Source: Ferrimicrobium sp. (GTDB lineage: Bacteria > Actinomycetota > Acidimicrobiia > Acidimicrobiales > Acidimicrobiaceae). From it: a DNA stretch of 53,095 bases. The stretch covers positions 1-53,095 of the forward strand of contig NZ_DAHVNP010000067.1 of assembly GCF_027319265.1 (NCBI RefSeq), written 5' to 3'. The position numbers and the translations under genes were made by a program. Below are positions 19,528 to 35,109 of this stretch, piece after piece. The notes below the pieces were generated by a model. It had not been told where the DNA came from, searched no databases, and was given only the letters and a program-made list of their open reading frames with translations. The first letter of the stretch is position 1; each line of letters begins with the position of its first letter.

Positions 19528-22071
19528 GTGAGAGATGATAACCCATACCGCTTAACCCGTTCCGTCGAACCGATCCACTACGACCTTTTTCTCCATATCA
19601 ACCCCGACGAAGAGAGTTTTTTTGGAGCGGAGACCATCACTGTGCGCGTCAACGACGAGACCACCACCGTCGAGTTGAACGCCCTCGACCTTGACGTCTC
19701 AGCCGCACGCCTCAACGGAGAGCCGGTGTCGGTGACGGTCGACCCCGCCCACGAGATCGTCCGGCTCCAATGCGCTGCTCCGCTACCGAGTGGGGTTGAT
19801 GCGCAGATCCAACTGGAGTTCTCTGGTAAGCTACGCGCCGACCTGTCGGGTCTCTACCGCTCCACCTACAACGATGAGCACGGGGTCACCCACAACATGG
19901 CGACTACACAGTTCGAGTCCACTGGCGCTCGAGAGGCCTTCCCGTGCTTCGATGAGCCCGACATGAAGGCGACCTTCACCATCACGCTTGAGACACCAAC
20001 CTCACTGCAGGCCATCTCGAACTATCCAGAGCACGAAACGAAGCCAAGTGAGGATGCGGGTTTCACGAGACACCTCTACGAAACCACGATGGTGATGTCG
20101 ACATACCTACTCGCCTTCGTCGTTGGCGATCTGCGCATGACGGCTCCGATTGTTGCAAACGGAGTGCCAATCCGCGTCATCCACACGCCGGGCAAGGAGG
20201 CGCTCACCGGTTTTGCCCTCCGTGTTGCCAACCACGCCATCGCGTACTTCGAGGATTGGTTCCAGATACCCTATCCTGCACCGAAGCTGGATCTTCTCGC
20301 GATCCCCGACTTCGCCTTCGGTGCCATGGAGAATCTCGGCGCCGTCACCTTTAGGGAGACTGCACTCCTCGTCGACGAGACGCGGGCAGGCCAGACAGAG
20401 CTAGAACGCATCTGTGATGTAGTCTGTCACGAGATCGCACACATGTGGTTTGGTGACTTAGTGACCATGAAGTGGTGGAACGGCATCTGGCTCAACGAGG
20501 CCTTCGCAACTTTTATGGAGACAAGTGCCTCCGATGCCTTCAACCCTGACTGGCACAAGTGGGACTCCTTTGGCATCGCTCGGCTTGGCGCCCTCAATAT
20601 CGACGGTCTTCCCTCAACACGACCGATCGAGTTTCCGGTGATCGCACCGTCAGACGCGGAAAACATGTTCGATCTGCTCACCTACGAGAAGGGATGCTCA
20701 GTCATCAAGATGATGGAGCAATACCTCGGTGAGGAGACCTTCAAGAATGGCGTGCGACGTTACCTGAACAGCCATCTTCATGCAAACGCCGAGACGGAGG
20801 ACCTTTGGAAATCGCTCGAAGAGGCAAGTGATGAGCCAGTCACCGAGATGATGAACACGTGGATTCTCCAGGGCGGGCACCCCCTCGTGAGCGTCGATGC
20901 ACTGCCTAGTGGCGTGCGACTCTCACAGACTCCCTTCCGTTTCCTCGGAGAGGAGACTGATCCCATTGGCGAAATCGGAACGAGTTGGCTGATCCCCGTG
21001 GTGAGCCGTGAGCTAGACGGCCACGAGCACCGAACTGTCCTCGGCCAACAGGACCACGTGATCAACGCAGACCGAGGCCCGATTATCGTCAACGCCGGCG
21101 GCATCGGCGTCTATCGAACGCGCTACTCCCCCCAGGTACTCCCTGGACTGTGCGAGCACTTCGGCGATCTTGAGATGCTCGAGCGCTTCAATCTCATCGC
21201 GGATACATGGGCGATGGTTCTCTCCAACCAGGCGAGCCTCGCTGATGCGATCCAACTCTTCACCTATTGCATCAGCGAAACCGACCCCAACGTCCTCCAG
21301 GTCGTCGCGTCCTCCCTTGGGCTTTTGCAGCGCATCGCCTTGGAGGAGGAACGAGCCTCCGTGGCACAACTAACCAGCTCGATCTTTACCCCGGTGATCG
21401 AAACTCTCGGAATGGAGCCCAACGATTCGGACACACCGCTGACAAAGGTCGCGCGTTCGGTCGCTTTTACTGCCCTTGGCACGATCGCCGATGATCCAGA
21501 GGTCCGTGCCCAAGCCCTCCAGTGGTTCCGCGAAGAGATGAGCGGCGTTGGGGGACCAAGTGGTGATCTCGCCTCTGCCGTACTCGCCACCGTCGCCAGA
21601 CACGGCGACGACTCAGAGTTTGCCTTCATGCTGGATCGCTATCGCAACCCACTTGACCCACTTGACGAGCGACGACACCTCCTCGCCCTGGCTGACTTCC
21701 GACAGCCGTCACTGATCAGTCGCCTCCTGCCAATGATTTTGACCTCGATTCGCTCACAAGATGGTGCCTTTGTGCTCAACCGAGTGATCGCCAACGAAGC
21801 GGTCGCCGAGTTAGGGCTTGACTTCGCCTTCTCACACTTCGACGATCTCCTTGCGCGACTGCCGGCAAACAGCTACGACCTCGCCTTTGGGTCGCTTCCA
21901 ACCTTGATCTCGCCGACCATCTATCAACGTTCTGCCCAGATCTTCTCGTTCTTCGAGACCCATAAACTACCAGCAGGGGAACGATTGCTCACGCAAACAC
22001 TGGAGCGTTACCGGGTCAATCTGCGCTTCCGCGACCGTTACGCGGGTCGATTGAACTCATTTCTGTCATAG
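19528..22071 (+). CDS. pepN: Aminopeptidase N (M1 family)
   Basis: PepN removes N-terminal residues from peptides in the cytosol. With the GTG start at 19528 the protein has 847 residues: beta-sandwich domain (PYRLTRSVEPIHYDLFL onward), FEPCFDEPD-type segment (FPCFDEPDMKATF), the substrate motif GAMEN (about 265-269), the zinc motif HEIAH (H301, H305) with the distant NEAFA glutamate (E324), and a long ERAP1-like alpha-helical C-terminal domain. A longer reading from 19444 adds 28 residues (MRHKNRAGRR...) that do not fit the family. Confidence 0.95.
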   Translation: MRDDNPYRLTRSVEPIHYDLFLHINPDEESFFGAETITVRVNDETTTVELNALDLDVSAARLNGEPVSVTVDPAHEIVRLQCAAPLPSGVDAQIQLEFSGKLRADLSGLYRSTYNDEHGVTHNMATTQFESTGAREAFPCFDEPDMKATFTITLETPTSLQAISNYPEHETKPSEDAGFTRHLYETTMVMSTYLLAFVVGDLRMTAPIVANGVPIRVIHTPGKEALTGFALRVANHAIAYFEDWFQIPYPAPKLDLLAIPDFAFGAMENLGAVTFRETALLVDETRAGQTELERICDVVCHEIAHMWFGDLVTMKWWNGIWLNEAFATFMETSASDAFNPDWHKWDSFGIARLGALNIDGLPSTRPIEFPVIAPSDAENMFDLLTYEKGCSVIKMMEQYLGEETFKNGVRRYLNSHLHANAETEDLWKSLEEASDEPVTEMMNTWILQGGHPLVSVDALPSGVRLSQTPFRFLGEETDPIGEIGTSWLIPVVSRELDGHEHRTVLGQQDHVINADRGPIIVNAGGIGVYRTRYSPQVLPGLCEHFGDLEMLERFNLIADTWAMVLSNQASLADAIQLFTYCISETDPNVLQVVASSLGLLQRIALEEERASVAQLTSSIFTPVIETLGMEPNDSDTPLTKVARSVAFTALGTIADDPEVRAQALQWFREEMSGVGGPSGDLASAVLATVARHGDDSEFAFMLDRYRNPLDPLDERRHLLALADFRQPSLISRLLPMILTSIRSQDGAFVLNRVIANEAVAELGLDFAFSHFDDLLARLPANSYDLAFGSLPTLISPTIYQRSAQIFSFFETHKLPAGERLLTQTLERYRVNLRFRDRYAGRLNSFLS

Positions 22072-22157
22072 GGAGTCCCCCACGACGACGCTACAGGTTA
22101 GACGATGGATCGGGCCAGGGTTGGGAACCGCCCAACTGAGGAACGATCCAGTCGCAT

Positions 22158-22871
22158 GTGTTCCCGATCGGGCCCGCGAGCCAGGATACCGCGTTGGATA
22201 AAGATACCGCGTTGGACCAGCACGATAGTGATCGACGCTTGGCGCTCACGTTTGCATCAACCGTGCCTGGCTACTTCTCCCCAGACCAGCTCGCAGTTCT
22301 GGCTGACTTCACCGAAGGCGCGATCACCAGATCCAGGGGACCGATCCTTGAGATCGGGAGCTACTGTGGCCGGTCGACGGTGATCATTGGGACGATGGCG
22401 CAACGCCACCATCGCCGCTTCATTACTGTTGATCGCCATCTAGGATCGATCGAGATGCAGCCCCCGTTCCCCTACTTCGATCCAGCAATCATCGACCGCG
22501 TCCATGGGCGTCTCGATTCGATCTCCGTCCTCATGGATACACTCGAACTCGCTGGGCTCCGCGAATGGGTAACGGTCATGGTAACCCCAAGCCAGGTGCT
22601 CACTCACTTGCTACGCCCCGGTTTCTCGATGATCATGATCGATGGCGGTCACGATGCACTCTCCACATGGACCGATTATCTCTGTGCCATTGCACTGCTC
22701 GCCGACGACGGAACCCTCGTGATCGACGATGTCTTCGAAGATCCAAGCCGTGGAGGTCGCCCACCCTTTGAGGTGATGACCGCTGCGCTCCACTCGGGCT
22801 TTACGCTCGTGGAACGCAGCGGCCCTCTCGTCGCGCTACGACGCACCACGGCGCCCTCATTCGCGCGCTAA
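22158..22871 (+). CDS. Class I SAM-dependent methyltransferase (Methyltransf_24-like)
   Basis: The 237-residue protein has a SAM-binding motif ILEIGSYCGRSTVIIG, an acidic TVDRHLGS after beta-2, MIMIDGGHDALSTWTDY and LVIDDVFEDPSRGG, as in the methyltransferase_24/cephalosporin-hydroxylase-like group that often acts on sugars or glycans. The N-terminus is doubtful: the GTG at 22158 includes a duplicated DTALDK/DTALDQ stretch that comes from an 18-bp tandem repeat, and TTG codons inside the repeat are alternatives. Its 3' end overlaps the convergent alpha/alpha-barrel gene by 15 bp; the neighbouring genes suggest a shared glycan-modifying role. Confidence 0.8.
   Translation: MFPIGPASQDTALDKDTALDQHDSDRRLALTFASTVPGYFSPDQLAVLADFTEGAITRSRGPILEIGSYCGRSTVIIGTMAQRHHRRFITVDRHLGSIEMQPPFPYFDPAIIDRVHGRLDSISVLMDTLELAGLREWVTVMVTPSQVLTHLLRPGFSMIMIDGGHDALSTWTDYLCAIALLADDGTLVIDDVFEDPSRGGRPPFEVMTAALHSGFTLVERSGPLVALRRTTAPSFAR
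22185..22216. repeat. 18-bp period tandem duplication at methyltransferase N-terminus
   Basis: GATACCGCGTTGGATAAA (22185-22202) is followed by a second copy of its first 14 bases (22203-22216). The repeat is in frame and doubles six residues, which suggests either a tolerant N-terminus or that coding begins after the repeat. Confidence 0.8.
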
Positions 22872-23843
22872 GATTCCTTCGACCAATCCCACCGGTCTCC
22901 CTAGCCCTAAGAGATACCGGGCGATAATGACCGCTGCCGCTGAATACGCACTCCTCTCATCGGCTGGGAAACTCACCCGATCGGGCCATACCCAACCGGT
23001 GAGATAACCGCCATCGCTACGTCGCAGAGCCTCGATATCATCGAGCATCTGCCGTGCTTGACGCAGTTCCCCCAGGCGAATCATGGCCATCGCCGCCTCT
23101 GCCGTCTCCGCTGTGGTGACCCAAGAGCTGTTTGCGATGGCCTGCACGCCAGCTCCCGGAACATAGTGTCGCTCCAAGAACTCCTGCATACGACGCCTCG
23201 CATCAGCGTCATCGAGGACGCCAGCGAGGACTGGATAATAGCCGTCCATCGCCCAAGCATCCTTCGCGAGAAAACGACTCGCAGGGTCGCAGATATAGGC
23301 GCCGAGTGCAGCGCTCGCCTCCTTGACGTGTGGGCGATTCCTGCCGAGTAGCGCATCAAGCGCCTCAATCGCCTCAAGCGAGAGCACCATTGCCGACGAA
23401 CCAGCCAACAAGGAGCCCTCAAGTGGAGTCCGATCCGGTGCGAGCGCCCAAGGGAACGAACCATCGCTGCGCTGTCGTCGCAGCACAAAATCGACCGTCA
23501 CATCAAAGGAGATCGCAAAGTCACGGACGCTAGCGACATCCCGGGAACTCACCAGATACGCGAGGGCTCCAACCGCTGGATAGAGACAGTTATTGAGATC
23601 GATACGTGGCTCAAGCACGGCCGATGTCGTAAAGAACTGGCAGTATGACCCGTCTCGATTGGCCACGCGAGTCAACCAACCGAGACCACGACGAGCGGCA
23701 TGGTATCGCGCACCAAGCGCCAATGCGATAACCGCCTCGGTGTGGTTCCATGGATCCGCGTGGTGACCAGCGGCCCATGGAATCATCCCGCGGTGGTCCT
23801 GCAGTGCACCGATGGCGTCCAATGTCGTCTCAAACTCGATCAT
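22857..23843 (-). CDS. Alpha/alpha-barrel protein often annotated as prenyltransferase
   Basis: This 328-residue all-helical protein has repeated helix-pair signatures (WLTRVANRDGSYCQF, FVLRRQRSDGSFPWAL, ALRRSDGGYLTGWVWPD), as in terpene-cyclase/protein prenyltransferase alpha-alpha toroids. The DxDD motif and QW repeats of squalene cyclases are absent, and WNHTEAVIALALGARY near the N-terminus looks more like the substrate pocket of (alpha/alpha)6 carbohydrate enzymes. A prenyltransferase role is therefore doubtful. It overlaps the upstream methyltransferase by 4 nt (ATGA) and is third in a leftward GT4-methyltransferase operon. Function unknown. Confidence 0.75.
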   Translation of the reverse strand: MIEFETTLDAIGALQDHRGMIPWAAGHHADPWNHTEAVIALALGARYHAARRGLGWLTRVANRDGSYCQFFTTSAVLEPRIDLNNCLYPAVGALAYLVSSRDVASVRDFAISFDVTVDFVLRRQRSDGSFPWALAPDRTPLEGSLLAGSSAMVLSLEAIEALDALLGRNRPHVKEASAALGAYICDPASRFLAKDAWAMDGYYPVLAGVLDDADARRRMQEFLERHYVPGAGVQAIANSSWVTTAETAEAAMAMIRLGELRQARQMLDDIEALRRSDGGYLTGWVWPDRVSFPADERSAYSAAAVIIARYLLGLGRPVGLVEGILARE

Positions 23844-24565
23844 CGGTCATCGACTCTCAGGTAGAGCACGATACTTTTGCCGAGCACTGGGTTGAGCGCA
23901 CGCTCCATCCGCGTCAAGACCGGGGATTGGCCCATGAGTTCACGTACCAGCGATCGCTCATAGCGTCGCACAAACCAGACCGTGCCAGAGTTCTCAACGC
24001 CCACATAGGACTTGAGCCACCAATACGGGCTGTGCAATCCATGACTATGGTGCATCCACTCCACCGTCATTCCTGCCCTGCGGCTAAGCTCTCGCAGTTC
24101 ATGCCGCGTAAAGATGTGGATGTGGCCACCAGGGACGCGGTGATACTCAAGTGAGATCAGCCAATTGATCACCTCGGGGCCACAGCGCGGTACCGAAACT
24201 ACGACGCGTCCACCTGGGCCGACGATTCGTGCACACTCGCGGAGAACGAGAAGAGGCGATGGAACGTGCTCAAGCACCTCCGATATCACCACAAGGTCAA
24301 AGCTAGCGTCACGGAACGGGAGGTGATGCGCGTCGAGTTGCACGACTCCGCCCGATGCCGCATGGACCTCTGGCCGGAGATCTCCCGCCACGACCCACGC
24401 CCCACGGGCGTCCAAGGCTCGCAGATGCCGACCAGTTCCAGCACCGAGGTCAAGAACCTTGGTGCCCTGGACATCGCCGAGCGCCTCCCAACGAAAACTA
24501 ATCAAGCTCCTAACCTCAAGAGATCCCGATAGTAACCAACCGTAGCCGAAGCCGTGCTCCGCCAC
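23840..24565 (-). CDS. Class I SAM-dependent methyltransferase (Methyltransf_11-like)
   Basis: The protein shows KVLDLGAGTGRHLRAL (motif I), AGDLRPEV, QLDAHHLPFRDASFDLVVISEVLEHV (motifs II-III) and GPGGRVVVSVPR, so it is a small-molecule or glycan methyltransferase. The C-terminal segment with WWLKSYVGV and aromatic residues might touch the membrane. The ATG at 24565 gives 241 residues and overlaps the glycosyltransferase gene by 64 nt; a TTG at 24505 would give 221 residues with a TTGA overlap and GAGG at 8 nt, and may be the true start. It lies between the GT4 and alpha/alpha-barrel genes. Confidence 0.85.
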   Translation of the reverse strand: MAEHGFGYGWLLSGSLEVRSLISFRWEALGDVQGTKVLDLGAGTGRHLRALDARGAWVVAGDLRPEVHAASGGVVQLDAHHLPFRDASFDLVVISEVLEHVPSPLLVLRECARIVGPGGRVVVSVPRCGPEVINWLISLEYHRVPGGHIHIFTRHELRELSRRAGMTVEWMHHSHGLHSPYWWLKSYVGVENSGTVWFVRRYERSLVRELMGQSPVLTRMERALNPVLGKSIVLYLRVDDR

Positions 24566-25731
24566 GAAAATCTCGCGATGGCTCGCTCTCTGGCGTACAA
24601 ACCGCGTTCCAACGCTACCGTGCCGGAGGCAAGCACCGACTCGATCGCCTCGGCAAGCGAACGTGCTGAACCCGGCGTTGTCATCGCTCCCGCATCCCCA
24701 ACAACCTCAGGCAGTGCGCCACCGCGCGAGGCGACTAACGGGACTGCACAGGACATCGCCTCGACCGCAGGCAACGAGAAACCCTCGTAGAGTGATGGGA
24801 CGACTGCGACACTTGCGCGGGCGTAAATCTGCACCATCTCCTCGCGCGAAAGGACTCCCGTCACCGTGACTCTGTCCTGGAGTCCGAACCGAGCGATCAG
24901 CAGGGGGAGTTCCGTCGAATTCTGATGTGGCCCCATGATGATCAACCTGGTATCTTGCAGGAGACTGATCGCCTCGATCAGATACCGCAGCCCCTTGAGA
25001 GGGACATCAGCACTTGCCGTGGTGCAGACCAGCCCCCTCTCCCTATGGACATCGGGTTGAGGGGCGTAGAGGTCGGTGTCAACCCCAATCGGGACAATCG
25101 CGATCCGACGCCGGTCGATTCCTAGTTCCCGCGCCAGATCACCGGCTGATGAGGTCGAAACCGTCAGAATACGCGGCAGCTCTCGTGCCACCGCTACCTG
25201 CATAGGGATAAAACTATAGAAACGACGGAGTCCCACCCGTGCCTTCATCGATGACGCCGCTGCGAGTGCAAGCCGACGGTCGACGCTGATAGGGTGATGA
25301 ATCGATGACAGCACTGGCGTGCCCGATCGAGCCAACTTCGCAAGTGTCCAGTTGAGCGATTGGTTATCGTGGATAACATCAAAATCACGACGTAGCTCAT
25401 CGAAGTGGTGCCGCAAGCGCCACCCAAAGCCCTTTGGATCGGGAAAGGCCCCGATGCTCATCAGCCCCACCTCTAGCAGGTCTTCGACGCTGCGATATTC
25501 AGAGGGTCTTGGAATACGGAAGGGGTCCGGTTCACGAAAGAGATCAAGACCAGGTACCTTGCGCAACACGACTCGCGCGTCGAGCTCAGGATACGGGGGA
25601 CCCGAAAAGACCTCGACGTGATGACCTAGAGCAGCGAGCTCCCTGGTGAGAAAGGCCGTATAGACGCCTTGCCCGCCAGAATGCGGATTCCCTCGATAGA
25701 GGGTGAAGGCGATTCGTAACTTGTTATCCAT
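24502..25731 (-). CDS. Glycosyltransferase family 4 protein
   Basis: This 409-residue GT-B protein has an N-terminal acceptor domain beginning LRIAFTLYRGNPHSGGQGVY and a C-terminal donor domain with TVSTSSAGDLARELG, VPIGVDTDLY, TTASADVPLKGLRYLIEA, YARASVAVVPSLYEGFSLPAVEAMSC and GGALPEVVGDAG, the standard GT4 EGFSLPxxEA nucleotide-sugar site. The residue HHPIS may bind acceptor. The ATG at 25731 is chosen because upstream in-frame sequence is low-complexity and unlike the family. It heads the leftward operon with a methyltransferase and an alpha/alpha-barrel protein, suggesting synthesis of a methylated glycan or glycolipid. Confidence 0.9.
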   Translation of the reverse strand: MDNKLRIAFTLYRGNPHSGGQGVYTAFLTRELAALGHHVEVFSGPPYPELDARVVLRKVPGLDLFREPDPFRIPRPSEYRSVEDLLEVGLMSIGAFPDPKGFGWRLRHHFDELRRDFDVIHDNQSLNWTLAKLARSGTPVLSSIHHPISVDRRLALAAASSMKARVGLRRFYSFIPMQVAVARELPRILTVSTSSAGDLARELGIDRRRIAIVPIGVDTDLYAPQPDVHRERGLVCTTASADVPLKGLRYLIEAISLLQDTRLIIMGPHQNSTELPLLIARFGLQDRVTVTGVLSREEMVQIYARASVAVVPSLYEGFSLPAVEAMSCAVPLVASRGGALPEVVGDAGAMTTPGSARSLAEAIESVLASGTVALERGLYARERAIARFSWRSTASATVGYYRDLLRLGA

Positions 25732-26648
25732 GCGCGACAAGCGCCATTCCATCAGTCCCACACACCCAGCCATTTTGCCCAACAGACCTCCACCGCTGGC
25801 ACAGAGCTGGTGCACTCCCGTCGATACGCTGTTGCGCCAGAGAGCACACCCCCAAGGGAGGTGGGGTTTCCTTGTTCGCGGTTCTTCTGCCGAAGTTTGC
25901 CCGCTTGCCTTGCGCGGTCGCGGTGGCCTGATCGGTAGGGAGCATGCCAGCTGCCGCCACACCACTGCCAACGGGTTGTGTCGATTGTATCGATCGCCCC
26001 TTGGGCACCTCTAGAGCCGACTCTCCACGTGCACCATCGCCACTGTAGCGACGCCTGGGATCCGTACGAACCACGCCCACCTGCTTGAGTATCGCAGTTG
26101 AGGCGACTTCGAGGGCACGCCTAGCGATACGCGCAACACCGTTCCCTTGGTGGTGATCCCACCGTCGATCCAGGCGGTCGCCACGAGCTGGTGGGGCAAC
26201 AAGAAGGCAGTGTTTGACGATCGAGGTGCCAACGCTAACGGTTCTCTCCTCAGCCAGCTGGTTCTTGCGAGCGACCTGGTTGACAAGGGACGTCGCACAC
26301 CAACCAGCTATCGCCCGATGTGTCCGCAAGCCAAAAGTTTGGCTTCTCGTCGTCGACCAGGTATCTGATACCCCAAGGTGGCGATGACCGCTCGGTACCT
26401 GCTTGTGGGGCCGCTCGTATTGCTTGATCCGCTGTTGGATGGTCAAACGTCCCTCACATCCCCTTGCCAGCTGATCGATGCCGCAGCAGTCGTCCACCAT
26501 CCTCACCCACAACAGACGAGAACGGCGAACCCAGCAGTCGTTGTGGGTCCCACCATCTCATGAACGACAGCTTACCGGACGGTAGCCTCGTGAGCCGGTC
26601 AAGGAATCTACCCTAACTGCGGTCCTAGGTGCTACACTTATCCATCTA
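25732..26648. other. 917-bp region with decayed DNA and possible transposase remnant
   Basis: No intact gene is convincing here, though several long open frames exist on both strands with arginine-rich, unfamily-like translations. On the plus strand about 26147-26560 a reading with KAVFDDRGANANGSLLSQLV, then GGDDRSVPACGAA in another frame, loosely resembles the N-terminal part of IS1380-type transposases (vvFDD...naGlll.....; aGGDsiDD.dvLr.Ga). Stops and frame changes interrupt it. The promoter of the PRC/MgtE-N gene lies at the right end (TACACT, 26633-26638). Confidence 0.3.
26633..26638 (+). promoter_or_regulatory. -10 hexamer before the PRC/MgtE-N/CBS gene
   Basis: TACACT stands 10 nt before the ATG at 26649, and no Shine-Dalgarno sequence is present. 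This suggests a very short leader. Inference from spacing only. Confidence 0.35.
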
Positions 26649-27896
26649 ATGGAACAACTCCTATGGTTTACCGAGGTTGTCCGCAATCCCGTCTTTGTGC
26701 AGGGATCAGAGATTGGCAAGGTCGAGGACGCAGTCCTACGACTTGAGGAATCAAGATACCCGGTCCTCACTGGATTCTTAGTCTCGGTCAACGACGTCTC
26801 CATCTTCATCTCCAGCGACAAACTTGAGCACCTCTCCGATGAGTCGATCTCGACCAATCAGGCCCTCGCCGAGTTCTCTCCGTTCGAGCGACGTCCACAG
26901 GAGATCCTGATCGAGCGCGATCTGCTCAACCATCACCTCATCTGGGCGAAATCCAAGCTCCGTCCGCGTTTAGTCACTGCAAAGGATGTCGGATTCGGCC
27001 TCCAGGGGACCTTGTGGCGCGCGATCTCTATCGATGTGGCAACGGCGCACCGGAGTCGGTGGCTCAAGGCAAAGCGATCCGCCAGAGATCACTCTCTTGT
27101 CGACTGGCTTGACCTCGTGCCTCTCGTTGGTCATGTCCCAAGTGCACGCAAACGTCTTGAACTGCGCAGCATCCGCAAGCTCCACCCCGCCCAGCTCGCA
27201 GACCTCCTTGAGGAGGCGTCCGAGGTTGAGGGTCAAGAGATTCTCGGTGCCCTGCAGGCAGATCCTGAGTTCGAGGCCGACGTGGTCGAGGAGCTCGCCC
27301 CTGCAAGGCAACGCGACGCCATTCGCCATCGGACAGATGCTGAGGTTGGCGAGTTGCTCAGCGAAATGGAGCCTGACGACGCAGTCGACCTCCTCTTAAG
27401 TCTCGACCAGGAACGGCGCGAAGGTGTGCTCGCCGCGGTGCCCGAACCCGCTCGCGAGTCGATCAATCGTCTACTGAACTACCATCCAGAGTCCGCCGGT
27501 GGCCTGATGACCACCGACGTTATCACGCTCAACCCTGGTGCCACCATCGCCCATGCCTGTGACGACCTCAGGAGTCGAGAATCACTCCCCCACAACTTGT
27601 GGTCAATCTTTCTCACTGACGACTCCGGTTGTCTCTTTGGCCAGATTCCGATCTCCGCCCTCATCAGTGCGGATCCAGAGGATACCCTCGCCCAACACGC
27701 CGAAGCTGATCCTCCGGTCGTACGACCCGACTCGGATCTCAGCGAAGTAGCCGTGCTGATGGCCGACTACAACCTCGCTGCGTTGGCGGTGGTGGATGAC
27801 AGCGGGCTGTTGCTCGGATCGGTGACCGTCGATGACGTCCTCCCACGAACCATCGCACCGGCCTGGCGACGCCGACAAGAGGCGCTGAGCGAGTAG
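26649..27896 (+). CDS. Cytosolic PRC-barrel / MgtE-N / CBS protein
   Basis: The 415-residue protein has no membrane segments. Its N-terminus (VRNPVFVQGSEIGKVEDAVLRLE) looks like a PRC-barrel; residues about 165-265 match the MgtE N-terminal superhelix (LRSIRKLHPAQLADLLEEAS, LLSEMEPDDAVDLLLSL, LLNYHPESAGGLMTTDV); and two CBS repeats follow to the C-terminus. In MgtE these domains sense Mg2+ and gate the channel, but here the channel is missing. The convergent neighbour is an NRAMP-like transporter, and such pairs are common in Actinobacteria, so I infer that it regulates or senses for that transporter. Confidence 0.88.
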   Translation: MEQLLWFTEVVRNPVFVQGSEIGKVEDAVLRLEESRYPVLTGFLVSVNDVSIFISSDKLEHLSDESISTNQALAEFSPFERRPQEILIERDLLNHHLIWAKSKLRPRLVTAKDVGFGLQGTLWRAISIDVATAHRSRWLKAKRSARDHSLVDWLDLVPLVGHVPSARKRLELRSIRKLHPAQLADLLEEASEVEGQEILGALQADPEFEADVVEELAPARQRDAIRHRTDAEVGELLSEMEPDDAVDLLLSLDQERREGVLAAVPEPARESINRLLNYHPESAGGLMTTDVITLNPGATIAHACDDLRSRESLPHNLWSIFLTDDSGCLFGQIPISALISADPEDTLAQHAEADPPVVRPDSDLSEVAVLMADYNLAALAVVDDSGLLLGSVTVDDVLPRTIAPAWRRRQEALSE

Positions 27897-28029
27897 CGAC
27901 TCCCGTCATCAACGGTGAGCGTAGTACCCGAATCGAGGGCCATGCCCGACCCCGGCTGCGTTATGCTCGTACCATCGTCTGGTAACCCACGAGTGCGAGC
28001 GCCTCTTGACCAGGAGCGCCCAGAGACAT

Positions 28030-29616
28030 TCAGGATCCGAGACGGAGGAAACTGATGACCATCAGCACGACGGCGATAATGAGATAGACCCGAACAAAGA
28101 GAAGAATGAGACTCCGGCCTCGTGACTGGACAGGACGGTGCAGTAACGCAGATGCAGGCATCGACCAACTCAGACGGGCCGCCTTGTCGATCTGTTCTCG
28201 TTCACGCACCTTGAACTGGTAGTAGGCTACACCAACCGTCACTACCACAACAGGGATAAACGTTCCCACGAGCAATCCCGTTACCGGTACGGTTGGGAAG
28301 ACGGTGACAAGGGTAAGAATCAGCGACAACTGCAAGAGTAGCGAGACGATAAAGGTTGCCACGACGTTCAACCACGGAGGATTGATCCAAGGACCCATGA
28401 TTCCCTTGTCATTGCAGAGCAGGAGGAGAAAGAGCAACGCGCTCGGCAACAGTACGCCTGCCAACACCTGCACGGCAAGGTTGACTAGGCTCAGCGGCAG
28501 CGAAGGAATCAGCACCACGCCAGCCGAGATGGCGACAAGTATCACGTAGGAGGCATAGAAGCCCTTGGCCTCTCGCACCGGAGTGTTGAGCGACTGGTCG
28601 ACCCCAAAGAGGTCTCCGAGTGCATACGAGGTCGAGAGTGTCACCGTTGCGGCCCCGATCAGCGAGGCCTCGAGCAAGATGATCGCAAAGATCACACCGG
28701 TGATGGAGCCAGCATGCTTGGCGAACCCCTCAGCAAGAACTCCGGCATTCTGGAAGGCTCCCACCTTGAAGCCGACGAATACCGCCGCCGCCGCCACCAT
28801 CACCAAGGCACCCGCTACGTTCGTCACGATAGAGCCAAGGAAGGTGTCCGCGCGTTCGTACTTGATCCAGCGGGGGGTGATCCTCTTGTCAACCACGTTC
28901 GACTGCTGGAAGAACAGCTGCCAAGGGGCGATCGTGGTTCCAACGATACCGATGATGAAGATCGTCGCGGTCGAGGTAATGCCGCCCTTGACTCCGGGAA
29001 TCAGCAGTCCGGTCGCGATACCTCCTGCGTGCCAAGGTGTGAGCAGCACTAACGGCACCACGAGGAGGCTCACAAGGACGAGGATGAGCATAAAACGCTC
29101 CCAGCGTTCAAATCGTCCACTTGCCACCGCCGCCACCAACACGATGCCCATCAGTGTCACGGCCACCGCAGGAGGGACTCCAAAATAGCCAAGCGCAAAG
29201 CGGACGCCAATGAACTCAGTAATGAGCGTTAACAGGTTCAGGACGAACAGGTCAACCACAGAAAACGCGGCCCAGAACCTACCAAAACGCTCCTTGAGGA
29301 GCTTTCCATGCCCAACACCGGTCACTGCCCCCAACCGAACCACCATCTCCTGGGAGACGGCAAGAACAATGACGAGCACCGGCATGAGCCATAACAGCGA
29401 GTAGCCATAAGCCTGACCCGCCTGTGCATAGGTGGTGATTCCCCCGGCATCGTTATCGCCCACCATCACGATGATGCCAGGGCCGATAACCGCTAGAAGG
29501 GCGAGTAGCTTACGTTTGAACGAGGGTGATGAGCGAAGTTCGGTGAAGGTAATCTTGCCAAGCCCGCCACGAATCGTTGACTCGTCGTTATCCACACTTG
29601 GATCGAGGTTTTGCAC
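28030..29616 (-). CDS. NRAMP-like divalent metal transporter with altered metal site
   Basis: The 528-residue protein has 11-12 helices and the NRAMP fold signature GPGIIVMVGDNDAGGITTYAQAGQAYGYSLLW. The TM1 motif, DPGN in Mn2+/Fe2+ NRAMPs, reads DNDAGG (54-59), and the TM6 MPH motif reads APW (230-232), so the soft-metal-selecting methionine is replaced by alanine. NRAMP-related Mg2+ transporters also lack that methionine, so Mg2+ or another hard cation is a reasonable guess. The GTG start follows GGAGGT at 7 nt. It faces the PRC/MgtE-N/CBS gene. Confidence 0.88.
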   Translation of the reverse strand: MQNLDPSVDNDESTIRGGLGKITFTELRSSPSFKRKLLALLAVIGPGIIVMVGDNDAGGITTYAQAGQAYGYSLLWLMPVLVIVLAVSQEMVVRLGAVTGVGHGKLLKERFGRFWAAFSVVDLFVLNLLTLITEFIGVRFALGYFGVPPAVAVTLMGIVLVAAVASGRFERWERFMLILVLVSLLVVPLVLLTPWHAGGIATGLLIPGVKGGITSTATIFIIGIVGTTIAPWQLFFQQSNVVDKRITPRWIKYERADTFLGSIVTNVAGALVMVAAAAVFVGFKVGAFQNAGVLAEGFAKHAGSITGVIFAIILLEASLIGAATVTLSTSYALGDLFGVDQSLNTPVREAKGFYASYVILVAISAGVVLIPSLPLSLVNLAVQVLAGVLLPSALLFLLLLCNDKGIMGPWINPPWLNVVATFIVSLLLQLSLILTLVTVFPTVPVTGLLVGTFIPVVVVTVGVAYYQFKVREREQIDKAARLSWSMPASALLHRPVQSRGRSLILLFVRVYLIIAVVLMVISFLRLGS

Positions 29617-29805
29617 AACAGAGACCTCCTTCGGTTACGGGAGATGCGACTTTGGAAGAGAAGAGAAACGGTCCGCTAACTGCGATCCGCAAACAGATGA
29701 GGAGTGGTACTTGGGGGTTCTGATCGCACCAATACCTCCTCTCCAAAGCTCCTGTGCCAGGAAGGCCTGTTGTTCGACTATTCTGCAAACATTACGGCCA
29801 TTACC

Positions 29806-30540
29806 CTAGTCGCGGTGCAGGTGGTCTCCTGCCACGCGGGGCTTATCACCAACAACCACACCTGCCTCACTGACGACGCTCTCGAGGTGGACATCGGTAA
29901 ATCCGGCAGCCTGCAAAAGCTGTATCCAGCGATCCTTAGCGATCGGCTTCTCCTGGACTCTTAGCAAGTAACGCAGGGCATTCTTCGCAATCCGCCAGTA
30001 GCCACCAACTCCCTTGGCAGCGAGAAGTTTCACCTTTTGAAGGATCACCTGCCGATCCTCTGTCGTCCCGCCTCGTCCAAACATCATATCGCCAACAACA
30101 AGGCGCCCTCCCGGTTTGAGCCAACCGTAACAGAGACCGACGACCCGTGCTTTGCCATCATCATTTAAGTGATGAAAGACATAGTTCGACACGATCAGAT
30201 CAAGAGAGCCAGCGGGAACCTCTAAACGCTCAAGCGCTGATACCCGCCCGTTGACATGGTGGTACCCCTCGGCCTGTGCACGTTCTAACAGACGTGCAAC
30301 CATCCGTTCCGAGATGTCGACTCCTGTGATCTCGGCCACCGAGGGAGCGAGTCGCAGCGTCACTTGCCCAGACCCACAACCAAGATCAAGCACACGCATC
30401 GAGGCCTGGGGAGCAGCTTGTTCAACGACTGCATCGATCACCTTGTCGAGGTTGGGTGACGCCTCATGCTCCCAGGACTCCACTCTCCGTTGCCAAACAT
30501 AGTGTTGGATGCGGACCGTCAGGTCTTCGAAGACACTCAT
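29806..30540 (-). CDS. Class I SAM-dependent methyltransferase
   Basis: The 244-residue protein has MRVLDLGCGSGQVTLRLA (motif I), ITGVDIS (motif II), LDLIVSNYVFHHL (motif III) and LKPGGRLVVGDMMF, typical of UbiE/arsenite-type Methyltransf_11 or _25 enzymes. The C-terminal helical segment KDRWIQLLQAAGFTDVHLE is common to the family. The substrate is unknown, and no linked pathway gene is obvious. It is separated from NRAMP by 189 bp and divergent from the SRAP gene. Confidence 0.85.
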   Translation of the reverse strand: MSVFEDLTVRIQHYVWQRRVESWEHEASPNLDKVIDAVVEQAAPQASMRVLDLGCGSGQVTLRLAPSVAEITGVDISERMVARLLERAQAEGYHHVNGRVSALERLEVPAGSLDLIVSNYVFHHLNDDGKARVVGLCYGWLKPGGRLVVGDMMFGRGGTTEDRQVILQKVKLLAAKGVGGYWRIAKNALRYLLRVQEKPIAKDRWIQLLQAAGFTDVHLESVVSEAGVVVGDKPRVAGDHLHRD

Positions 30541-30926
30541 AGTTGCCTCAGTCTAAGAGTTGGGACGACCCGATAGTCCGATCCCGCGAAAATCTGCACT
30601 CCACCCAACGCGCCGCCGTACGTCCGCAAGAGACGATGGGACAGAAGGGCACCGGCAACCAAATCGCTCCGCGTTTCTCCTTCATCAACCTCTCACGTCA
30701 GCGTCATACCATCCTTGGAGTCTGGGCGATCTTGATCGTACCCAGGCGATAGGACTGGACGGACCGTCATGCCGACCCGGACCGCGCCCACGATCCACCG
30801 CCAGATGAAACGACAACTCCCGGAGGACCAACACTCGCTTGTCTGTTTGGCAACCCACCAGCTCTATCACCCACGTACCTGAACATAGGCTAACCTTAAC
30901 CCAGATGCAACGACAGGGGCAGAGGT
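30541..30926. other. 386-bp divergent intergenic region, methyltransferase / SRAP
   Basis: No confident gene is present. A short plus-strand frame ending near 30752 encodes SRQRHTILGVWAILIVPRR, which recalls the first helix of an MMPL/RND transporter and may be a relic, but it is too short to call. A TAGGCT hexamer near 30886 could serve the SRAP gene, whose ATG follows GGGGCAGAGGT. Confidence 0.3.
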
Positions 30927-31532
30927 ATGTGTGCACGGTTTGAACAACAGATCGGTCCAGCGCAGAGCCAGGAACTCTTCCTTACACTCGGCGTCACCAT
31001 CACCCCATCAGAGACTGCGACCGCCCCGACGATTCGTCCAACGGACAGGGCTCTCGTCGTTGTGCAGACTGGGGTTCTTCGTGCTCACTTCGGTCTCCAC
31101 TGGACGGGACGACCAATGGTCCTTAACGCCCGTTCTGAGACGCTGCGAGAGCGCCCCACCTTCAGGCGACTGCTCGATAAGGGGCGAGCCATCGTGCCGC
31201 TTGCTGGCTTCTATGAGAAGTCAACCCTCTTTCGTGGTCGAGACACTGCGCAAGCAAGTCCATCGCTACTTCTTGGAGCTGCCCTTATCGACGAAGCACG
31301 CGATTCCTTTGTCCTCCTCACCCAACCAGCGGATGAGGTCGTGTCGCCGATCCATCCAAGAATGCCGGTGCTCATGGGACCTCTCGGAGCGACTCAGTGG
31401 CTCACCGAAGGGACACTTGTCCAAAACCGGATCGCCCTCGAAGTCGTCCCTGCGCCACAACCACCCGCTGGAACGACTAGCGCTCGACGCGTCGTGCAGA
31501 ATCCTCTGTTTGAGCAAGGAAGGCTCGACTAG
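30927..31532 (+). CDS. SOS response-associated peptidase (SRAP/HMCES-YedK) domain protein
   Basis: SRAP proteins crosslink their Cys2 to abasic sites in single-stranded DNA, shielding them. The 201-residue protein begins MCARFEQQ with the catalytic Cys2, has PTDRALVVV, NARSETLRERPTFRRLL (the Asn and Glu that bind the DNA end), VPLAGFYE with the catalytic Glu, and IHPRMPVLM with the active-site His. The second residue pair is CA rather than the common CG. Its 3' end overlaps the convergent dxs gene by 56 bp. The basal length suggests an intact minimal domain. Confidence 0.9.
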   Translation: MCARFEQQIGPAQSQELFLTLGVTITPSETATAPTIRPTDRALVVVQTGVLRAHFGLHWTGRPMVLNARSETLRERPTFRRLLDKGRAIVPLAGFYEKSTLFRGRDTAQASPSLLLGAALIDEARDSFVLLTQPADEVVSPIHPRMPVLMGPLGATQWLTEGTLVQNRIALEVVPAPQPPAGTTSARRVVQNPLFEQGRLD

Positions 31533-33378
31533 CGCCAGCGATCCCGAGGCCGTCAAGGCCCAGCTCCGTCAGGAGCGTGTCGACATTCCCATGGGGAAGG
31601 TACTCAGTCGGGATGCCAAGGTTACAGAACTCCACCTGTGGGTTGATCCGATGTACCGCTTGCGCAATGTACTCACCAGCGCCTCCGTGGATCAGACCAT
31701 CTTCGACGGTGATGACGCGACGAGCAGCGACAAGCCGCTCGATCAACTCAACAGGACAGGGCCTGATGACTCTGGGATCGATCACTGCCACGTCATACCC
31801 GTCCGCCTCGAGGAGATCGGCGGCCAACAAGGCTGGTACCAACATCTTGCCGATCCCAAGGATCACTTCAGCCTCAGACCCCTCACGCACCACCCTGGCA
31901 TGGAGACCCTCACCGACACCTCCGCGCACCACACGAGGGGCGAGCGACTTCGAGAATCGCAACGACGATGGGCCTTCGAGGGCAATGGCTGTACGCAACT
32001 GCACTCGAAGTTCCTCAACCGAGGAGGGCACAAAGACAGTAAGGTTGGCGACCGACAACATCTGAACCAGATCAAAAATACCGTGATGGCTCGGACCATC
32101 ATCGCCAGTCACTCCGGCACGATCCATCACAAACGTCACGCCAAGACCATGAAGGCCAACATCGAGGTTCACCTGATCAAAGGCTCTCGACATAAACGTG
32201 GAATAGATAGCGACGACTGGATGCAACCCTGCCATGGCCATGCCGGCTGCCGAGGTCACCGCGTGTTGCTCAGCAATACCGACGTCGAAAAACCGAGTTG
32301 GGAACGCCTCCTCAAACGGAAGTAGACCGGTCGGTCCTCCCATCGCAGCGGTGAGGACGACGACAGACGGGTTCTCCTTCCCAATCTGGACAAGTTCCTT
32401 GGAGAATGCCTCGGTATAGGAGGCTGGGGTATCACCCTCGATGTCAGCGAAAACCTGTGGCACCTTAAGGTCATGCAAACACTGCAGCTCGTCCTCTTCC
32501 GCAGGGGCGTAGCCCTTACCCTTTTGGGTGAGTACATGGACGACAATCGGCCCATTCCACTCCTTAGCTCCTGCAAGGGCATACTCAAGTTCAGAGATAT
32601 CGTGCCCGTCGATGGGGCCGGTGTAACGCACACCGAGCGCCTCGAAGAAGACCCTTGGCTCGATCGCCTCGCGCAGTGCTGAGGTCATATTCGCAAGCGA
32701 ACTCACCGCACGATTGCCCACCTTCGGAAGATCAGTGATGACTTGCTTGATCCGATTTCGGGCCTGAATGTAGGACGGATTCAGCCGTAGTTTGGTCAGC
32801 GACGATGAGAGCCGTGAAATGGTCGGCGCGTAGGAACGTCCATTGTCGTTCCAGATGATAATAATTGGGAGACGACGATGACCGATATTGTTCAGCGCCT
32901 CATAGGCCATCCCACCCGTCAATGCACCATCACCCACGACGGCCACCACTCTCCGGAGCGGCAACACCGAGGGATCATCGGCAGCCAATTGAAACGCAGC
33001 TGCCATCCCATAGGCATAGCTCAACGCAGTGGAGGCATGCGAATTTTCGATCCAATCATGTTCGGACTCTGACCTGTTCGGATAGCCAGAGAGACCTCCT
33101 CGCCGGCGCAGCGAATCGAAGTCGGCGTTACGGCCCGTCAGCAGCTTGTGGGGATAGGCTTGATGCCCAGTATCGAAGAGCAGAACGTCGCGTGGGGAGT
33201 CGAAACTGCGATGGAGGGCCAGAGTGATCTCAACCGATCCGAGGTTAGAGCCAAGATGCCCACCGTTTCTCGAGACCGTATCAATGATCCGCTGTCGAAT
33301 CTGCTGAGCGAGCTCCTCAAGCTCGACGTTACTCAACTCCGCAAGGTCACTCGGACCCTTAACGTTCTCTAATTCCAT
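31477..33378 (-). CDS. dxs: 1-deoxy-D-xylulose-5-phosphate synthase
   Basis: Dxs condenses pyruvate and glyceraldehyde-3-phosphate, the first and flux-controlling step of the MEP pathway. The 633-residue protein has GGHLGSNLGSVEIT, FDTGHQAYPHKLLTGR, the TPP motif GDGALTGGMAYEALNN, YTGPIDGHD, and the transketolase pyrimidine domain with GIAEQHAVTSAAGMA. The ATG at 33378 (MELENVKG) is chosen; a longer reading from 33459 adds 27 non-homologous residues. Its location beside the carotenoid genes suggests precursor supply, while ispE lies in the distant housekeeping operon. Confidence 0.95.
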   Translation of the reverse strand: MELENVKGPSDLAELSNVELEELAQQIRQRIIDTVSRNGGHLGSNLGSVEITLALHRSFDSPRDVLLFDTGHQAYPHKLLTGRNADFDSLRRRGGLSGYPNRSESEHDWIENSHASTALSYAYGMAAAFQLAADDPSVLPLRRVVAVVGDGALTGGMAYEALNNIGHRRLPIIIIWNDNGRSYAPTISRLSSSLTKLRLNPSYIQARNRIKQVITDLPKVGNRAVSSLANMTSALREAIEPRVFFEALGVRYTGPIDGHDISELEYALAGAKEWNGPIVVHVLTQKGKGYAPAEEDELQCLHDLKVPQVFADIEGDTPASYTEAFSKELVQIGKENPSVVVLTAAMGGPTGLLPFEEAFPTRFFDVGIAEQHAVTSAAGMAMAGLHPVVAIYSTFMSRAFDQVNLDVGLHGLGVTFVMDRAGVTGDDGPSHHGIFDLVQMLSVANLTVFVPSSVEELRVQLRTAIALEGPSSLRFSKSLAPRVVRGGVGEGLHARVVREGSEAEVILGIGKMLVPALLAADLLEADGYDVAVIDPRVIRPCPVELIERLVAARRVITVEDGLIHGGAGEYIAQAVHRINPQVEFCNLGIPTEYLPHGNVDTLLTELGLDGLGIAGASRAFLAQTEDSARRVER

Positions 33379-33594
33379 ATGCTCTACCGACTCCAACCGC
33401 TCTGCGACGCTGCAAAGAACTACCTCAATACTATCGCAACAGACGTCTCCCATAGGCAACCACCGACCAAGCTTCAGGATTCCGACCGCTTTGTGTTTGC
33501 TCCTCGTATCCTTCTGGTCTGGTCATCACCGTCTGACGTACCACAGGCACTCGCTGGACGGTCATACTGGTCACCATCATCCTCCGAGGCACGT

Positions 33595-33600
33595 TAGGCT
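33595..33600 (+). promoter_or_regulatory. -10 hexamer before crtYc
   Basis: TAGGCT ends exactly 9 nt before the crtYc ATG, the same spacing as in the bS22 and bL37 genes, and there is no Shine-Dalgarno sequence. A near-leaderless crtYc-crtYd transcript is inferred. Confidence 0.4.
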
Positions 33601-33609
33601 GAAATCCCG

Positions 33610-33945
33610 ATGGCACATCTCCAGTACCTGATCCTGATGGCACTCTGCCTAGTGGTTACCATACCGCTGGAGGTGCTTGGTGCTCGCGTTTGGCGTCAAC
33701 CTTTGAGACTCTTCGCCACCGTCGTACCGGTTGCAGTCGTGTTTTCGCTCTTTGATGCCCTCTCTATCAAGCAAGGATTATGGACCTACGCCCGTCGCTA
33801 TACCACGGGAATCAAAATCGCCGGCGTGCTGCCAATCGAGGAGATAGCCTTCTTTATCGTCATTCCGATCTGCGCCCTACTCACCTTTGAAACAGTCCAG
33901 CATCGCCGCCAGATTATCGCACGACTTCGGCGACGGGGAACCTGA
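33610..33945 (+). CDS. crtYc: Lycopene cyclase subunit CrtYc
   Basis: CrtYc and CrtYd together form the heterodimeric membrane cyclase that turns lycopene into beta-carotene (or epsilon rings in some Actinobacteria). The 111-residue protein has three hydrophobic helices, the PLEVLGARVWR segment after helix 1, FDALSIKQGLWTY and the family's PIEEIAFFIVIP motif. The gene's TGA overlaps the crtYd ATG by one base (TGATG), so the subunits are made together. It is divergent from dxs with a 231-bp promoter region between them. Confidence 0.92.
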   Translation: MAHLQYLILMALCLVVTIPLEVLGARVWRQPLRLFATVVPVAVVFSLFDALSIKQGLWTYARRYTTGIKIAGVLPIEEIAFFIVIPICALLTFETVQHRRQIIARLRRRGT

Positions 33946-34268
33946 TGGGTCTCTACACGATTGAGGCGCTCACAGCTGTCATCATCGTCGTGGTGATCGA
34001 CCTCGTGCTCACCAAGTCCAAAGCCGTCAAGACGCTGAACTTCTGGATTGCCTGGATCATCGTCGCGCTCTTCCAAATCCCCGTCGATGGCTGGCTCACC
34101 AAACTATCGAGCCCTATCGTGATCTATAACTCCCACGACTTCTCCGGGATTCGCTTTCCTCTGTCCATCCCGATCGAAGATTTTGCCTACGGTTTCGCCT
34201 TGACACTGCTGACCATCACTATCTGGCTGCGCCTGCAACCCGCCGGTGACCGTCACTCTGACCAGTGA
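33945..34268 (+). CDS. crtYd: Lycopene cyclase subunit CrtYd
   Basis: This is the second half of the split cyclase, 107 residues with three membrane helices. It carries DLVLTKSKAVKTLNFW and the C-terminal PLSIPIEDFAYGFALTLL, where PIED matches the acidic motif of CrtYd and of fused fungal CarRP cyclases. It overlaps crtYc by one base. Whether beta or epsilon rings are made cannot be told from sequence, but the adjacent CrtZ hydroxylase favours beta rings. Confidence 0.92.
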   Translation: MGLYTIEALTAVIIVVVIDLVLTKSKAVKTLNFWIAWIIVALFQIPVDGWLTKLSSPIVIYNSHDFSGIRFPLSIPIEDFAYGFALTLLTITIWLRLQPAGDRHSDQ

Positions 34269-34384
34269 CCGGTTATGCCCTCGCTGGAGACGACCACCGC
34301 CACCGAAAAGCTACCCATGCTGAGGATGGAGAATAATTAGCGCGAGCACAGTGTTAGAATTGATGGAATCACAAGGAGAGCCCT

Positions 34385-34852
34385 ATGACGTTTATTGCGA
34401 TTCTCATCGCTACCTTCATCGTGATGGAGCCAGTCGCCTATCTCGCCCACCGGGCGATCATGCACGGTGCGGCCTGGGTGCTTCATGCCTCACATCATCG
34501 CCCCCGCGAGACGACCTTCGAGGCGAATGACCTTTTCCCGATCGGATTTGCCTTACCTACGATCGTCCTCTTCTGGTTTGCGACCTCACACCCAGCCTTG
34601 CTGCCAATGGCTATCGGCATCACGTTGTACGGCGTCGCGTACAGTTTCGTACACGACTTCTACATCCACCAGAGGCTTGGGGCGATTCCCAAGGTACGCT
34701 ATCTTGAGTACCTCAAGCATGCTCATGCTCTCCATCATCTGTACAACGAGGAGCCTTACGGTATGCTCGCTCCAATTCTACCCGCTCGGCTGCGGCCGAT
34801 GATGGAGCTTGAAGTTGTACAAAACTGGAACCCGAGTTCGGTAAAGCCCTAG
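34385..34852 (+). CDS. crtZ: Beta-carotene 3-hydroxylase (CrtZ type)
   Basis: CrtZ is a membrane di-iron oxygenase that hydroxylates beta-carotene to zeaxanthin. The 155-residue protein has the four histidine clusters of the fatty acid hydroxylase superfamily: HRAIMH (22-27), HASHH (34-38), HDFYIHQR (about 95-102) and HALHH near residue 118. Four hydrophobic segments separate them. AAGGAGAG stands 5-6 nt before the ATG, and a TAGAAT hexamer about 30 nt upstream may be its own promoter. It completes a zeaxanthin route with crtE, crtI, crtB and crtYcYd. Confidence 0.92.
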   Translation: MTFIAILIATFIVMEPVAYLAHRAIMHGAAWVLHASHHRPRETTFEANDLFPIGFALPTIVLFWFATSHPALLPMAIGITLYGVAYSFVHDFYIHQRLGAIPKVRYLEYLKHAHALHHLYNEEPYGMLAPILPARLRPMMELEVVQNWNPSSVKP

Positions 34853-35109
34853 CACAGGTTCACCCATCACGACAGCAAGATCTCAGAGGTGTCGCCGAAA
34901 ATGCCTCCGGAAGAGACTCGCCGACCCACTGTGACTGTGGTGGGCTCGTTACCTCCATCATGGACGAGTGCGGACACTGCGTAATGAGTTGATGGTGTAC
35001 TGAGCGTGCATGACGGGTGGCACCGTGCCTGCTGAGTGAACCGAGTACGAGCTGCCAACACCCATATCGGCGGCTTTCGATGCGGTGCGGTGCTAACCAT
35101 GGTTCTCTG

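Follow-up and report, generated by a model that had tools for sequence, protein, structure and literature searches.

A Putative Mg2+ Uptake System in Ferrimicrobium: an NRAMP-Type Carrier Encoded Beside a Soluble Relative of the MgtE Sensing Half

Contig NZ_DAHVNP010000067.1 of Ferrimicrobium sp. (assembly GCF_027319265.1) is a stretch of 53,095 nucleotides that we refer to as the window. Near its middle, two convergent genes encode a membrane carrier of the NRAMP family and a soluble protein that resembles the cytosolic, Mg2+-sensing half of the channel MgtE; we call the soluble protein the sensor. The host probably takes up Mg2+ by this NRAMP-type carrier, whose gene adjoins a gene for a soluble version of the MgtE sensing half. 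The full explanation, in which the carrier is an NRAMP-related magnesium transporter (NRMT) that imports Mg2+ and the soluble protein is an MgtE-derived feedback sensor, strikes us as moderately probable. The host genome is 2.88 Mb and 95.9% complete, and the window is its contig C67.

RESULTS

The carrier resembles NRMTs

The carrier gene (positions 28030 to 29616, reverse strand) encodes 528 amino acids, which we characterized using the list of open reading frames, Pfam, a sequence search of the PDB, an AlphaFold model, and Foldseek. Pfam finds solely the Nramp domain (PF01566, E = 3.9e-72). The nearest solved structure is EleNRMT (7qia, E = 4.6e-58; the next PDB entry is at E = 5.1e-18), and Foldseek ranked EleNRMT first for the model of the carrier (E = 1.1e-17, 30% identity). 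By both the PDB sequence search and Foldseek, the carrier is nearer to NRMTs than to classical NRAMPs. It scores below the MntH model NF001923 (103 bits, with 430 needed) and below the Nramp_1 model NF037982 (41.5 bits, with 50 needed).

A preliminary description of the window, made from the sequence alone, had noted DNDAGG in place of DPGN in transmembrane helix 1 (TM1), APW in place of MPH in TM6, and the loss of the methionine that selects metals. Alignments confirm these observations. In TM1 of the carrier (29440 to 29451, reverse strand), D56-A57-G58-G59 replaces the DPGN of MntH. The TM6 sequence is TTIAPW, as against A-x-x-M-P-H in MntH: T227-T228-I229-A230-P231 (28924 to 28938, reverse strand) is followed by W232, and alanine (A230) takes the place of the methionine. 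The carrier lacks the canonical MntH/NRAMP signature of DPGN and the methionine of MPH. It does fit the NRMT motif DxxG...TxxA/T, as defined in PMC8806188, with D56-x-x-G59 and T227-x-x-A230.

We also compared 113 carriers of at least 400 amino acids that are encoded beside sensors (both genome sets described below are pooled, with duplicates left in). D56, G58, G59, T227, T228, and P231 are invariant in all 113, and at the methionine position each carrier has A, S, or T and none has M. The loss of the methionine, which the preliminary description linked to Mg2+ transport, is thus a consistent feature of these carriers, but it is not sufficient for Mg2+ transport: when the site of EcoDMT was converted to NRMT residues, no Mg2+ transport resulted (PMC8806188).

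At the positions of the TM6b histidines of H+-coupled NRAMPs, the alignment shows W232 and Q237 in the carrier and W and N in EleNRMT, and the glutamate of helix 3 is conserved as E134. EleNRMT transports Mn2+ as well as Mg2+ and is not H+-coupled (PMC8806188). Judging from its residues, the carrier probably transports without H+ coupling, and it probably imports Mn2+ as well. On balance, we think that it is an NRMT, with the NRAMP fold, that takes up Mg2+ as its presumed substrate without a methionine ligand.

The model of the carrier (mean predicted local distance difference test score, or pLDDT, of 89) has helices that lie past the end of the EleNRMT alignment, at residues 445 to 470 and 499 to 527. 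Residues 14 to 23 form a small beta pair. Carriers beside sensors are of two types: long (517 to 618 amino acids, with APW) or short (423 to 446 amino acids, mostly with SPY or TPY). The C-terminal helices of the long-type NRMTs (28033 to 28284 on the reverse strand of the window) exceed the EleNRMT-aligned part, and a conserved loop before the last helix, with consensus WRMPxLALL, is typical of this type. Most long-type carriers also have AHxGDIxGALGTI near the N terminus, which is degenerate in the window's carrier; both segments are missing from the short-type carriers shown in the alignment. The N-terminal segment of the window's carrier, DESTIRGGLGKITFTE (residues 11 to 26; 29539 to 29586, reverse strand), corresponds to this AHxGDIxGALGTI stretch and is a candidate docking segment.

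The sensor retains the cytosolic half of MgtE without the channel

The sensor gene (26649 to 27896, forward strand) encodes a PRC-type/MgtE-N/CBS protein of 415 amino acids, as judged from the open reading frames, Pfam, a PDB search, and an AlphaFold model. A beta-rich region (about residues 1 to 160) is followed by an MgtE N domain (178 to 281), a pair of CBS domains (about 283 to 401), and a short C-terminal helix (404 to 414). Pfam places MgtE_N at 178 to 281 (E = 1.2e-19) and matches the CBS pair in two stretches (E = 6e-16). Up to E = 1 it reports nothing further in this protein, neither a membrane domain nor the channel domain PF01769. Among solved chains, the cytosolic domain of MgtE (2yvy) is nearest (E = 7.9e-25). 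The protein's AlphaFold model, with a mean pLDDT of 90, matches MgtE cytosolic domains with VIA Z scores of 21 to 23; for TtMgtE (2yvx/2zy9), Z is 21 to 22, with root mean square deviations of 1.9 to 2.4 across 230 to 248 residues. The list of similar folds is dominated by MgtE and CBS parts (residues 222 to 408) and barely covers the N-terminal region; the lack of a PRC structure among the folds listed therefore counts neither for nor against a PRC fold.

These results agree with the preliminary description of an MgtE N domain and CBS pair without a channel. That description also placed a PRC-barrel in front, for which the evidence is mixed. PRC (PF05239) has no match in the window's protein at E up to 1, but it matches 24 of the 54 aligned homologues at E = 0.01 (the best match has E = 2.4e-9, and L167 is over the cutoff), and residues 1 to 160 of the model are beta-rich. 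A separate gene with an MgtE N domain, adjoining the carrier gene, is the mark of an NrmT-associated soluble protein, and this is what we find in the window.

We transferred the numbering of TtMgtE by alignment, and 11 of 11 published residues that we tested fell on the correct letter. Four acids at the Mg2+ sites of TtMgtE (named as in PMC5882242) are retained in the sensor: D211 (codon at 27279 to 27281) corresponds to Glu59 (Mg7), D243 and D247 (codons from 27375 to 27389) correspond to Asp91 (Mg4) and Asp95 (Mg6), and D396 (27834 to 27836) corresponds to Asp247 (Mg4), all on the forward strand. The Mg4, Mg6, and Mg7 acids are kept in all 106 carrier-paired sensors that we aligned. All are D apart from Mg6, where 18 of the 27 sensors beside short-type carriers have E. 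The retained acids may bind Mg2+ in the window's protein. TtMgtE contacts ATP through four residues, and the window's protein keeps none of them (it has S319, S336, A337, and L376); the 106 paired sensors keep Tyr170 in 2 cases, Arg187 in 3, Phe227 in 0, and Asp188 in 35. Since the Mg4, Mg6, and Mg7 acids are retained while Mg5 (discussed below) and most of the ATP contacts are changed, it appears that the sensor kept the Mg2+ clamp but lost the channel-facing acids and most of the ATP site.

The pairing of sensor and carrier is conserved

We examined the pairing in two sets of genomes. The genome scan considered one genome per species; from 529 confirmed relatives it retained the best 80, so it favors close relatives. 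Its records are mostly metagenome-assembled and are named as Actinomycetes, Chloroflexi, Dormiibacterota, Armatimonadetes, and Acidobacteriota. The other set comprises 60 related genomes, including the host's own. The sensor query matched 46 of these genomes at 56 places, from which 51 stretches were fetched; the places without a stretch of their own are the window itself, a second match in G048 that lies inside L084, and three weak matches to CBS only (two in G037 and one in G052). Six identical sensors are common to both sets.

An NRMT lies beside the sensor in 75 of these best 80 scan loci, and within 800 bp in 74 of the 75. (The carrier at L133 is 2.5 kb off, and the carrier at L147 is a piece of 232 amino acids.) The two genes are co-directional with the sensor first in 71 of the 75, convergent in 2, co-directional with the carrier first in 1, and divergent in 1. 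Among the related genomes, 43 of the 51 fetched loci have an NRMT beside the sensor: 24 are co-directional with the sensor first, 16 are convergent, 2 are divergent, and 1 has the carrier first. This adjacency is far above chance. The preliminary description had staked its proposal on conservation of the neighborhood, and the neighborhood is indeed conserved. Because convergent pairs are also conserved, a shared transcript is not the cause of the adjacency there. The convergent layout occurs in two separate groups of sensors (L034 to L043, and L062, L066 to L068, L072, and L073).

Five scan loci lack an NRMT. In two of them, L121 and L151, the sequence continues for just 181 and 108 bp past the sensor match; we take L155, L165, and L167 to be real exceptions, although the visible flanks are just 406 bp upstream at L155 and just 1.3 kb downstream at L167. 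Eight loci from the related genomes also lack an NRMT: L071, L075, and L083 are near contig ends, L084 has a true MgtE, and L058, L076, L081, and L082 are of the DUF1003 type described below.

In the window, the stop codons of the two genes are 133 bp apart in the list of open reading frames (intergenic region 27897 to 28029). A site scan found no promoter-like sites and 6 terminator-like sites, with 2.5 expected, and none of these is inside the intergenic region; we draw no conclusion from these sites. Riboswitch control of the pair was rejected because no Rfam family, the M-box included, matched at E up to 1 across positions 20000 to 35000 (15 kb).

Other transporters in the genome and its relatives

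Neither CorA nor the MgtE channel domain (PF01769) has a match in the host genome at E = 0.001, and MgtA has no match over the cutoff. The best match to the MgtA model, a P-type ATPase on contig C73 (L085:1480-3807), was rejected as MgtA: it passes the cutoff of the proton-efflux model TIGR01647. A proton-efflux ATPase fits an acidophile, which the host presumably is, judging from its relatives.

Across the 36 genomes of the window's family, which are 71 to 99% complete, CorA is present in 0 of 36 and MgtE over the cutoff in 0 of 36, with one sub-threshold MgtE match, in G021. Counts of genomes within a single family lack independence, so we prefer a family-level table. Among 24 other families of the order, with one genome each, CorA or MgtE is present in 1 of the 5 with the pair and in 17 of the 19 without it (Fisher p = 0.006). 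With good genomes only, the counts are 1 of 4 and 15 of 16 (p = 0.013), and if G047, whose sensor is cut short by the end of a contig, is moved to the paired side, they are 2 of 6 and 16 of 18 (p = 0.018). The lack of CorA, MgtE, and MgtA over the cutoff fits a hard-cation role for the carrier, which is the best candidate for the genome's main Mg2+ importer. The window's family is good ground for testing, as Mg2+ may enter its members mainly through the pair.

The genome encodes a second NRAMP, on contig C3 (L002:1363-2634), which keeps the methionine (AVIM) and has DVGS in TM1. It is transcribed away from a gene at L002:35-724 whose 229-amino-acid product we take to be a DtxR/MntR-type regulator. 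These two genes are likely a Mn2+/Fe2+ system that exists beside the Mg2+ pair.

DISCUSSION

Possible control of the carrier by the sensor

In the explanation that we favor, the soluble protein would derive from the cytosolic half of MgtE. When cytosolic Mg2+ is ample, Mg2+ would clamp the N and CBS domains of the sensor together via D211, D243, D247, and D396. In this state the sensor would dock onto the carrier from the cytosolic side, possibly on the carrier's N-terminal and C-terminal cytosolic segments, and this binding would slow Mg2+ uptake. If this is true, then a Mg2+ carrier is restrained by a soluble subunit from an unrelated channel, which would be an unusual kind of transport control.

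Several observations weigh against this explanation. First, the genome encodes one CNNM protein, which could move Mg2+, and its contigs C70 and C31 hold four weaker matches to P-type ATPases, which are below the MgtA cutoff. In a sample of the phylum in which only CorA was scored, CorA is missing from 7 of the 10 genomes with long-type carriers and from 56 of the 236 others. The p value of 0.003 for this difference rises to 0.065 once three genomes that were already counted are left out. In addition, the absence of Rfam matches leaves riboswitch control of the pair unsupported.

Second, the published tests are not all favorable. The carrier of A. capsulatum, which is encoded beside an MgtE-like gene, rescued a Mn2+ defect fully and behaved as a Mn2+ transporter; it rescued growth on Mg2+ solely at low millimolar Mg2+, and co-expressing the sensor gave no measurable gain in rescue (PMC4072509). 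The C. acetobutylicum carriers were functional without an MgtE-like partner (PMC4072509), and the NRMT of that organism allowed growth at limiting Mg2+ (recounted in PMC8806188). We considered whether the pair might handle Mn2+, in which case the carrier would chiefly import Mn2+ and the soluble protein would read Mn2+ or both ions. The A. capsulatum results and the transport of Mn2+ by EleNRMT would be consistent with this, but we think it rather unlikely. The NRAMP at L002, with its methionine and its presumed DtxR-type neighbor, is a better candidate for Mn2+ or Fe2+ uptake, and handling of Mn2+ by the pair would leave the genome without a classical Mg2+ importer over the cutoff, unless the CNNM protein imports Mg2+.

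Third, the sensor departs from MgtE at several Mg2+ sites. Mg5 is broken: Asp226 of TtMgtE corresponds to N375 in the window's protein, and this position is D in just 2 of the 106 paired sensors and N or R in the other 104. Asp250 corresponds to P399 in the window's protein and in 7 of 7 sensors of its genus, yet the position is D or E in 95 of the 106. The plug-helix acids (Mg2 and Mg3) correspond to R407 and R408, which were counted past the end of the alignment; at these two positions, 0 and 2 of the 106 have an acid, respectively. MgtE closure was reported to need each of Mg2 to Mg7 (PMC5882242), so with some of these sites lost, the mechanism of MgtE cannot be transferred whole.

Fourth, some sensors occur without an NRMT (L155, L165, L167, and the DUF1003-type group), so the association of the sensor with NRMTs is not exclusive. 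Perhaps the soluble protein has no direct action on the carrier, and the two genes are linked via metal homeostasis; the soluble protein could be a chaperone, could regulate a different membrane protein, or could sense adenylates. The chaperone alternative was named in PMC4072509, where the C. acetobutylicum carriers worked without the soluble protein. No NRMT was seen within the stretches at L155, L165, and L167, and the related DUF1003-type group adjoins DUF1003 instead of an NRMT in all four loci tested. However, the adjacency is retained across convergent, divergent, and co-directional layouts, and the loss of all four ATP contacts in the window's protein, and of most of them in the 106 paired sensors, argues against an MgtE-like ATP site. 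We consider it improbable that the two proteins are unconnected in this way.

Overall, the preliminary description's proposal of a two-part device for uptake of a hard cation gains from the assignment of the carrier as an NRMT, from the conserved pairing, and from the absence of CorA, MgtE, and MgtA over the cutoff. The role of the second part is less secure, as the partner was of no help in A. capsulatum (PMC4072509). Control of the carrier by a cytosolic sensor is plausible.

Evolution of the sensors

A quick tree of 122 sensors, whose root is not known, was built after 6 identical sensors and 4 with fewer than 380 amino acids were dropped; 4 of the kept sensors have an unreadable carrier and 12 have no carrier. 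The type of partner is clustered on this tree, with 12 changes as compared to a mean of 39.6 for shuffled labels (0 of 200 shuffles were as low). Ten sensors (support 100), 9 beside long-type carriers and 1 at a contig end, are nested in a group of 35, and the remaining readable carriers of that group are all short-type (24). Three short-type pairs are placed elsewhere in the tree. Sensors seem to have switched carrier type during evolution, in a direction that would depend on where the root lies.

A DUF1003 gene is next downstream of the sensor in the four loci of this type (L058, L076, L081, and L082), and this context suggests a link between DUF1003 and Mg2+. At L082 (5164-8194, reverse strand), the sensor is followed by the DUF1003 protein and then by a protein with two MgtE channel domains in which no N or CBS domain was found. 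The same soluble regulator is possibly serving an unrelated channel at this locus.

A broader scenario, which we offer tentatively and with some doubt, is that the PRC/MgtE-N/CBS protein is an exchangeable subunit for Mg2+ feedback that split from an MgtE channel. It would have dropped ATP sensing and Mg5, kept the Mg2+ clamp between the N and CBS domains, and acquired new partners: two kinds of NRMT and, through DUF1003, possibly the twin-domain MgtE channels. The long-type carriers would have gained their conserved cytosolic segments to receive it.

Comparison with known systems

This arrangement has been known since 2014 yet is still poorly tested, and the window's pair is a good example of it. 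Shin et al. found that most NrmT genes adjoin a gene homologous to the N-terminal cytoplasmic domain of MgtE, and they proposed that this neighbor has a role in cytoplasmic feedback or is a chaperone (PMC4072509). Since both the pairing and the feedback idea are in that study, the window's pair belongs to a published arrangement, with the same two parts and the same proposed feedback; the core idea of a soluble sensor that controls an NRMT was already proposed in 2014. Beyond the co-expression experiment in that study, we found no later test of the proposal in the open-licence literature. The window's genes are convergent instead of forming one operon, no M-box was found in the window, and the window's sensor has a PRC-type region; the words "PRC" and "barrel" do not occur in the main text of PMC4072509. 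As far as the available parts of that article go, the present analysis apparently adds to it the convergent arrangement of the genes, the PRC-type region of the sensor, the loss of ATP contacts and of Mg5 in a selective way, the switch of partners, and the family-wide absence of CorA and MgtE.

The carrier is like EleNRMT (7qia; Ramanadane et al. 2022, PMC8806188) in its fold, in DxxG...TxxA, in the loss of the TM6b histidines, and in the glutamate of helix 3. It differs in its length of 528 amino acids, with an extra N-terminal segment and the C-terminal helices at 445 to 470 and 499 to 527. The main text of the EleNRMT paper contains neither "operon" nor "CBS".

The sensor is like TtMgtE (2yvx/2zy9; PMC5882242 and PMC5529423) in its N domain, its CBS pair, and its Mg4, Mg6, and Mg7 acids. 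Unlike MgtE, it has no channel, the Mg5 pair and the ATP contacts are changed, the plug-helix acids are gone, and a PRC-type region lies in front. The DUF1003-neighbor sensors from other families of the order align to the window's sensor at full length, including the N-terminal region, but 5 of 5 carry Asp at both the D226 and the D250 position.

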